Origin: Porphyromonas sp.
GTDB taxonomy: Bacteria > Bacteroidota > Bacteroidia > Bacteroidales > Paludibacteraceae
Reading direction: 5' to 3'
DNA length: 35,509 bases
Assembly: GCA_020726365.1 (NCBI GenBank)
Contig: DYSC01000004.1
Span: 1-35,509 of the forward strand
Positions 24,285-31,585 of the stretch are shown piece by piece. The first letter of the stretch is position 1; the number at the start of each line of letters is the position of its first letter. The translations under genes and the position numbers were made by a program. Under the pieces are notes generated by a model. The model had not been told where the DNA came from. It saw nothing but the letters and a program-made list of their open reading frames with translations, and made no database searches.

Positions 24285-24773
24285 TCAGAATTTCACGTCG
24301 TAATTAGGCTCTTCCACAATTTCGGGAACAAGCTGATTGTAAACTACTTTTCCGTTTTCGTCGATAGCTACTACCGAGCGTGCCATTAAACCACCCAATG
24401 CACCATCAGTCATCAACACACCATAGTCTGTTGCAAAATTATTGTAGCGGAAATCGGAGGCTACAGTTACGTTTTCAAGACCTTCGGCACCACAAAAACG
24501 ACTTGCAGCAAATGGTAAATCTTTTGATACACAAAGTACTACGGTATTTTCATGAGCTGCTGCCCATTTGTTAAAATTACGAACCGATGCAGCACAAACG
24601 CCTGTATCGATACTTGGGAAAATATTTAATACCAATTTTTTGCCTTTAAAGTCGGCCAGACTAATTTCGTTCAATCCAGCACCTACCAATTTAAAATCGG
24701 GTGCTTGACTTCCTACTGCAGGTAAACTTCCATTTGTAGCTACTGGGTTTCCTTTAAATGTTACTGTTGCCAT
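24285..24773 (-). CDS. tpx: thiol peroxidase, Tpx-type peroxiredoxin
   Basis: Atypical 2-Cys peroxiredoxin of 162 residues that reduces hydroperoxides with thioredoxin. The peroxidatic Cys60 lies in [15 protein letters not shown] and the resolving Cys94 in SRFCGAEG, only one position away from E. coli Tpx Cys61/Cys95. [16 protein letters not shown] is the typical strand before the active site. It is transcribed alone, divergently from the lipoprotein gene. No consensus minus-strand promoter was found in the 106-bp gap, and no PerR-like box was recognised there. Downstream are two hairpins, neither with a convincing minus-strand U-tract. Confidence 0.95.
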
Positions 24774-26066: not shown

Positions 26067-27746
26067 ATGGCAAAATTCACACTATATCAGGTTTTGGTTC
26101 GTCACTTTGGTAATCGCACAACAACAAATAAATTCGATGGTAATATAACAGAAAATGGCTGTGGCAAAATGAACGACTTCACTGCGAAGGCGCTTGTTGA
26201 AATTAAAAGTTCAGGCATATCGCACGTTTGGTACACCGGAATTTTGGAGCATGCCACACAAACCGATTACGCAACTTATGGTATAAAACCCGACCACAAA
26301 GCTGTTGTAAAAGGTAAAGCAGGCTCGCCTTATGCTGTAAAAGATTATTACGATGTTGATCCAGATTTAGCCGTAAATGTAGAAAAACGAATGGTTGAAT
26401 TCGAAAACCTTGTAAACCGAACACACAAAGCCGGTTTAAAGGTAATTATCGACTTTATTCCCAACCATGTAGCACGTGAATATCATTCGGATGCAAAACC
26501 CGAAGGAATAAAAGATTTGGGCGAAACAGACAATTCTGATTGGGCTTTTTCGCCTTTAAATAATTTTTATTACATTCCAAATCAAGCGTTTAAGCCGAAT
26601 TTCGAATTAAAAGATTATACCGAATTTCCTGCAAAAGCCACAGGAAACGACCAGTTTACAGCCACACCGAATGTAAACGATTGGTACGAAACAATTAAAT
26701 TGAATTACGGGGTAAATTACACCGAAGGCGGTCAAAAGCAGTTCGATCCCCTACCCGATACATGGCTGAAAATGTACGATATACTTCATTTTTGGACTTC
26801 GAAAAAAGTGGACGGATTTCGGTGCGATATGGCCGAAATGGTTACTGTGGAGTTTTGGGGCTGGGTAATTCCACGCTTAAAAACCGATTTTCCGGAACTT
26901 ATTTTTATTGCCGAAGTGTATAATCCTGCCGAGTATCGCAATTATATTTTCAATGGTAAATTCGATTATTTGTACGACAAAGTTGGTTTGTACGATAAAC
27001 TCCGTGCCATTCTGACTGAAAATCATGCAGCGAGCGATATTACGCACTGTTGGCGTGCCCTCGAAGGCATCGAAAGCAATATGCTAAACTTTTTGGAGAA
27101 CCATGATGAACAGCGCATTGCATCCGATTTCTTTTGTGGAAATGCGTTTGCTGCTTTTCCGGCAATGGTAGTGGCAGCAACACTTACCAAAGCACCTGTC
27201 ATGATATATTCCGGGCAGGAATTGGGTGAAAAAGGCATGGAGAACGAAGGTTTTAGCGGACCCGATGGACGAACAACCATTTTTGATTACCGAAGCATCG
27301 AATCGGTTCAAAACTGGTTCAACAATGGTAAATTTGGAGAAGATAAATTGACCGATGAACAAAAAAAAATTCGTAGTTTTTATAAAAAGTTATTGAATAC
27401 TGTACTGACAGAAAAAGTAATTTCAGAAGGGCAACTGTATGATTTAGAATATGCTAACTTTGAAAATTCGGATTTCAACACACATAAACATTTTGCTTAT
27501 TTTCGAAAATTTGAAGAAGATTTATTGCTAATGGTTGTAAATTTTAATTTCACCAATGACAATATTAAAATTGAAATTCCAAATGAAGCTTTTGATTTTT
27601 TGCAAATTGAAAATGGAAAGGTAGTTACTGTAAATGATATATTAAATGCTGATAAACACGAATTTAAAACAATCTTAAGTTCAGTTGAAAAATTTGAAAT
27701 TTCGGTTCCTAAATATTCGGCTTGTATTTTAAAAATAAGGTATTAA
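26067..27746 (+). CDS. glycoside hydrolase family 13 (alpha-amylase-like), cytoplasmic
   Basis: A 559-residue (beta/alpha)8 enzyme acting on alpha-glucans or related alpha-glucosides. The four GH13 regions are present: DFIPNHVAR (I), GFRCDMAE with the nucleophile Asp near 254 (II), FIAEVYNP with the acid/base Glu near 283 (III) and NFLENHDEQR with the stabilising Asp near 347 (IV). A C-terminal beta domain of about 90 residues ends in KYSACILKIRY. There is no signal peptide, so it should work in the cytoplasm on imported or stored glucan. It begins 5 bp after the lipoprotein stop and is probably translated from the same message. No sus-type genes are nearby. Subfamily and substrate cannot be decided by eye. 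Confidence 0.9.
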   Translation: MAKFTLYQVLVRHFGNRTTTNKFDGNITENGCGKMNDFTAKALVEIKSSGISHVWYTGILEHATQTDYATYGIKPDHKAVVKGKAGSPYAVKDYYDVDPDLAVNVEKRMVEFENLVNRTHKAGLKVIIDFIPNHVAREYHSDAKPEGIKDLGETDNSDWAFSPLNNFYYIPNQAFKPNFELKDYTEFPAKATGNDQFTATPNVNDWYETIKLNYGVNYTEGGQKQFDPLPDTWLKMYDILHFWTSKKVDGFRCDMAEMVTVEFWGWVIPRLKTDFPELIFIAEVYNPAEYRNYIFNGKFDYLYDKVGLYDKLRAILTENHAASDITHCWRALEGIESNMLNFLENHDEQRIASDFFCGNAFAAFPAMVVAATLTKAPVMIYSGQELGEKGMENEGFSGPDGRTTIFDYRSIESVQNWFNNGKFGEDKLTDEQKKIRSFYKKLLNTVLTEKVISEGQLYDLEYANFENSDFNTHKHFAYFRKFEEDLLLMVVNFNFTNDNIKIEIPNEAFDFLQIENGKVVTVNDILNADKHEFKTILSSVEKFEISVPKYSACILKIRY

Positions 27747-30952: not shown

Positions 30953-30995
30953 AAATAAATGAGTTGCAACTAACTTGTAACTCATTTATTTCTTT
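30953..30995 (+). terminator. intrinsic terminator after mdh
   Basis: AAATAAATGAGTT (30953-30965) pairs with AACTCATTTATTT (30979-30991), and the stem continues as CAA/TTG past one mismatch. A T-rich tail follows. Confidence 0.8.
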
Positions 30996-31057: not shown

Positions 31058-31091
31058 TTTGATTTTATATTGTGCTTTTAATTTATCTTTG
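31058..31091 (+). promoter_or_regulatory. promoter of perR
   Basis: TTTG at 31058-31061 and TATCTTTG at 31084-31091, with a 22-bp gap that is slightly long. The leader is about 70 nt. Confidence 0.6.
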
Positions 31092-31103
31092 TAATCATTA
31101 TAA
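31089..31103 (+). promoter_or_regulatory. PerR-box-like operator over the perR promoter
   Basis: TTGTAATCATTATAA is a 7-1-7 inverted repeat that differs from the Bacillus PerR box (TTATAATnATTATAA) at one position. The flanking T and A extend it to 8-1-8. It overlaps the end of the -7 box and the transcript start, a placement expected for repression by the gene's own product. Confidence 0.65.
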
Positions 31104-31165: not shown

Positions 31166-31585
31166 ATGAATAATTACATTCAAATTCACAATTATTTGAA
31201 ACAGTTCGACATTAAACCATCGGTTCAACGAACAGCAATTATGGATTATTTAATGACGCATAAAATCCATCCAACGATTGATGAAATTTATTCTACGCTT
31301 AGTCCTTTTATGCCAACGCTCTCGAAAACAACTATTTACAACACTTTGAATTTGTTTGTTGAAAAAGGAGCTGTACTTCAACTATCTATCGACGAGAAAA
31401 ATGCACGCTACGATGCTGATATTTCGAATCACGCACATTTTATGTGTAAAAGATGTGGTAAAGTGTACGATTTGTTTGATTTAAAACAAGAACTTTTCAA
31501 CAAACCACAATTGAAAGACTTTGATATTCATTCAGTTGAAATTTCGTACAGTGGTTTCTGTGGTACCTGCACCGGATTGAATTAA
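31166..31585 (+). CDS. perR: Fur-family regulator, PerR type
   Basis: Metal-dependent repressor of 139 residues: winged helix (about 1-80, with LSKTTIYNTLNLF as recognition helix) and a dimerisation/metal domain with HAHF (His89, His91). The structural zinc site is complete: Cys94/Cys97 (CKRC) and Cys132/Cys135 (CGTC). His35 in HPTIDEIY corresponds to the oxidisable His37 of Bacillus PerR, and the residue five after the second Cys is Asp102, the PerR-type choice (Glu in Fur). These features and the PerR-box-like site on its own promoter favour a peroxide sensor over an iron regulator. It is a single-gene unit, with a strong terminator 27 bp after the stop. Confidence 0.85.
   Translation: MNNYIQIHNYLKQFDIKPSVQRTAIMDYLMTHKIHPTIDEIYSTLSPFMPTLSKTTIYNTLNLFVEKGAVLQLSIDEKNARYDADISNHAHFMCKRCGKVYDLFDLKQELFNKPQLKDFDIHSVEISYSGFCGTCTGLN

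Follow-up and report, generated by a model that had tools for sequence, protein, structure and literature searches.

The window, a stretch of 35,509 nt that constitutes contig C101 of a 2.39-Mb MAG (89.6% complete), carries a perR-like gene downstream of a malate dehydrogenase gene (Table 1). A terminator-like hairpin with a 17-bp stem is situated 3' of the malate dehydrogenase gene, between it and perR. As this hairpin is probably the terminator of the malate dehydrogenase gene, the arrangement suggests that perR may form its own transcription unit. The sequence TATCTTTG located before perR conforms to TAnnTTTG, the -7 consensus of Bacteroidetes (PMC7366714), while a clear -33 TTTG was not established upstream of it. 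The last three bases of this element (31089-31091) are also the first three of the inverted repeat TTGTAATCATTATAA, which lies 62 bp from the start of the Fur-family gene. The original prediction had placed a PerR box over the -7/start region of this gene with a start at 31084. This overlap was confirmed, with 31084 corresponding to the first base of the -7 element and the box itself beginning five bases later.

Table 1. Features of the perR locus in the window and related sites in the MAG and other genomes
Feature	Position	Strand	Remarks
Thiol peroxidase gene (tpx)	24285-24773	-	
Terminator-like hairpin	30953-30991	+	-17.8 kcal/mol, z -8.69
-7 promoter element TATCTTTG	31084-31091	+	Fits TAnnTTTG, the -7 motif of the primary sigma factor in Bacteroidetes; 3 bases common to the operator
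PerR-type operator (predicted)	31089-31103	.	7-1-7 inverted repeat TTGTAAT-C-ATTATAA, 6/7 pairs symmetric
perR-like Fur-family gene	31166-31585	+	139 aa; Pfam FUR (PF01475), E 3.3e-22, over cut-off
Perfect TTGTAATNATTACAA before aldolase gene, MAG	C163:34256-34270 (L091:1501-1515)		
Site before ECF sigma-factor gene, MAG	C79:11145-11159 (L092:1501-1515)		
Sites before ECF sigma-factor gene, genus relatives	L163:1501, L176:1467, L181:1491		
Different Fur-family gene with rubrerythrin	L302 (G023:C13:25657-25926 and 26143-26406); G088:C1:78184-78993		

The product of perR belongs to the Fur family; its best solved relative is Bacillus subtilis PerR (2fe3, 8.9e-20), and its nearest named relatives are from Paludibacter-type Bacteroidales. 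Like B. subtilis PerR, it has five metal ligands (His35, Asp83, His89, His91, and Asp102, equivalent to His37, Asp85, His91, His93, and Asp104 in PerR numbering) and two CxxC zinc motifs (Cys94/Cys97 and Cys132/Cys135), which together provide a complete Cys4 structural site (PMC4866751). The last of the five ligands is Asp and not Glu, a difference reported to be key to peroxide reactivity (PMC4866751). His35, Asp83, His91, and Asp102 were present in all 101 proteins aligned and His89 in 100 of them, with the CxxC motifs almost invariant; the Asp102, His35, and full Cys4 site originally attributed to the regulator were thus borne out by both the sequence and the alignment. The best NCBIfam PerR equivalog model (NF052545) scored 105.2 bits, below its cut-off of 180, which is an annotation rule and not a functional requirement; this probably reflects lineage distance.

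Scanning of the window found that TTGTAATCATTATAA matches the Bacillus PerR box TTATAATNATTATAA, also a 7-1-7 palindrome (PMC4866751), at all but one position, as had been predicted. It likewise differs at a single position from TTGTAATNATTACAA, the consensus of sites upstream of perR in Bacteroidales. No other site in the window came within one mismatch of TTATAATNATTATAA, and only one further such site was identified elsewhere in the MAG. Of 20,000 dinucleotide shuffles of the 229-bp intergenic region before perR, 0.76% contained a sequence matching the Bacillus or the Bacteroidales consensus with no more than one mismatch. Judged alone, the box in this region is moderately unlikely by chance.

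To this single site can be added the upstream regions of 112 perR orthologues, of which 98 are distinct, with the best match to TTGTAATNATTACAA scored within 200 bp upstream of each gene. Among the distinct sequences, 21 contained a perfect match, 31 had one mismatch, and 21 had two, such that 52 of the 98 were within one mismatch, although related species share history and these counts do not represent independent events. The reversed motif gave no sites with zero to two mismatches, and shuffled sequences gave 0, 0.18, and 1.12 sites at zero, one, and two mismatches, respectively. The palindrome is seen immediately 5' of perR orthologues in many genera of related anaerobes, and this comparison places the box far beyond chance. 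Across 150 genomes of the family, perfect copies of TTGTAATNATTACAA numbered 58, compared with 6 for the reversed motif, and 21 of the 58 were directly upstream of perR. Approximately 14 of the 98 distinct upstream regions lacked a site within three mismatches of TTGTAATNATTACAA. In the near relatives L046 and L047, whose proteins are 94 to 95% identical, the box has decayed to TTGTAACCATTATAG (three mismatches, 4/7 symmetry). The box is retained in L048 and L049, which are more distant, and autorepression may thus have been weakened in some lineages.

Among the 66 boxes with no more than two mismatches, which were picked with the TTGTAATNATTACAA consensus itself, 65 had G at position 3 and 60 had C at position 13, suggesting that this symmetric pair is constrained. 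The operator in Bacteroidales is thus predicted to be TTGTAATNATTACAA rather than the Bacillus sequence, from which it departs by a G at position 3 and a C at position 13; it further differs from the Bacillus box in sharing bases with the TAnnTTTG -7 element. Palindromes also occur upstream of perR in the deltaproteobacteria Geobacter and Desulfovibrio, one of which overlaps the -10 element in Geobacter, but these motifs depart from the consensus of the Bacillus PerR box (PMC545781). The proposal of an operator conserved across phyla therefore holds only approximately, the exceptions being the two substituted positions in Bacteroidales and the other motifs used by deltaproteobacterial PerRs.

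An AT-rich Bacteroidetes promoter of the form TAnnTTTGTA, combined with chance on the right-hand side, could have generated such a box as a by-product. The left half, TTTGTA, belongs to this promoter type, the intergenic stretch is 20.5% G+C, and sites with up to two mismatches across the whole window were at chance level (2 found versus 1.52 expected). Because the left half could stem from the promoter, a bias toward TTTGTA that the reversed-motif control misses, the right half was tested separately. It matched ATTACAA with at most two mismatches at 38 of the 52 perR promoters that have TAnnTTTGTA, compared with 8 of 144 TAnnTTTGTA sites elsewhere. On this comparison, conservation of the box is not accounted for by the promoter by itself, and with perfect palindromes recurring 5' of perR, an origin as a by-product was judged highly improbable.

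The palindrome could also be the operator for another Fur-family protein, placing perR under iron or zinc control rather than self-control. A second Fur-family gene exists on contig C254 of the MAG, the TAATNATTA core is common to Fur, Zur, and PerR boxes, and the G found at position 3 resembles the Zur consensus (PMC545781). However, the T at position 2 agrees with PerR, and the site is three mismatches from the Zur consensus compared with one from that of PerR. The region upstream of the C254 gene itself lacks such a box, and almost all perfect boxes come from genomes that have this perR orthologue; 55 of the 58 fall in the 78 genomes with one, while the three in genomes without one are all inside reading frames. 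From the Fur consensus, the site is again three mismatches away, versus one from PerR. Control by another family member is therefore likewise highly improbable.

Since the palindrome recurs at perR orthologues and the regulator has the PerR ligands, the best explanation is that TTGTAATCATTATAA is very probably an autoregulatory operator, at which a PerR-type peroxide sensor binds to repress the gene encoding it. The peroxide-responsive autorepression proposed at the outset is supported as a prediction, and the reading of a self-repressed sensor is well supported by these comparisons. For DNA binding, repression, peroxide response, and the identity of the metal, we infer the following scheme. 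A PerR dimer carrying Fe(II) or Mn(II) at His35, Asp83, His89, His91, and Asp102 would bind TTGTAATCATTATAA, which overlaps the -7 element and the probable start of transcription, and would thereby block RNA polymerase. Oxidation of a metal-binding histidine by peroxide would then cause PerR to release the DNA, derepressing perR and its targets, which may include ahpC in the MAG and rubrerythrin in some relatives.

The MAG was searched for targets by patterns, families, and chosen stretches. Matches to the box had been expected near ahpC, katA, dps, and rbr. A weak candidate was found for ahpC (ATGTAATGATTATAA, ending 103 bp before the start), but searches of the MAG, which is 89.6% complete, did not find catalase, dps, or rubrerythrin genes. 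Sites with up to three mismatches were present in 10 of 29 distinct ahpC upstream sequences from the genus, compared with 2 in the control. Upstream of tpx in the window, the best site had three mismatches and so was not a good PerR box, and none was identified upstream of the ferritin gene. Three of the 58 perfect boxes in the family precede rubrerythrin, and another precedes an OsmC-like gene. Clear boxes preceded rubrerythrin in five distinct sequences from two other genera and in one relative from the genus, but most genomes compared had none. The PerR regulon thus seems to be small and to vary among genomes, in line with reports on deltaproteobacterial PerRs (PMC545781). The Bacillus 7-1-7 motif did not serve as a means of finding the regulon, as a scan of the MAG gave 96 matches versus 124 for the reversed control and so no enrichment.

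The only perfect TTGTAATNATTACAA in the MAG is located 181 bp before a class II fructose-bisphosphate aldolase gene. None of the 28 genus relatives has this box in the orthologous upstream region, making it species specific or a chance match, and the aldolase was rejected as a new target. Four of the 58 perfect boxes in the family, in four genomes of one genus (L186, L187, L190, and L191), lie approximately 112 bp before a gene encoding an N-terminal ATP-cone domain, probably an anaerobic ribonucleotide reductase. In two genomes without this perR orthologue, rubrerythrin is directly preceded by a distinct Fur-family gene (Table 1), perhaps a second PerR type.

Three further perfect boxes in the family lie before an ECF sigma-factor gene. 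Perfect or one-mismatch copies of TTGTAATNATTACAA were found approximately 260 to 280 bp before the same ECF sigma-factor gene in the MAG and three relatives from its genus, standing out in otherwise poorly conserved DNA. In two of these, the palindrome coincides with the opening codons of a divergent NfeD-like gene. That PerR also controls the sigma factor and its divergent neighbor in these Bacteroidales is a tentative suggestion that we consider rather unlikely; if true, it would connect peroxide sensing with a second tier of promoters.

PerR autorepression was to be expected, and the finding is correct and ordinary, of a kind already known. Within the same order, RegPrecise predicted PerR autoregulation and rubrerythrin control in Bacteroides thetaiotaomicron (BT0215/BT0216) (PMC12596196), where PerR occurs alongside OxyR (PMC8115020). 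Unlike in that species, perR is not beside rubrerythrin here, and ahpC is the only plausible target in the MAG. The finding adds a refined operator sequence for Bacteroidales PerR, TTGTAATNATTACAA, which is supported by the comparison of many genomes and does better than the Bacillus motif for locating regulons within Bacteroidales. The comparison also reveals a recurrent layout in which the operator shares bases with an unusual -7 promoter element.
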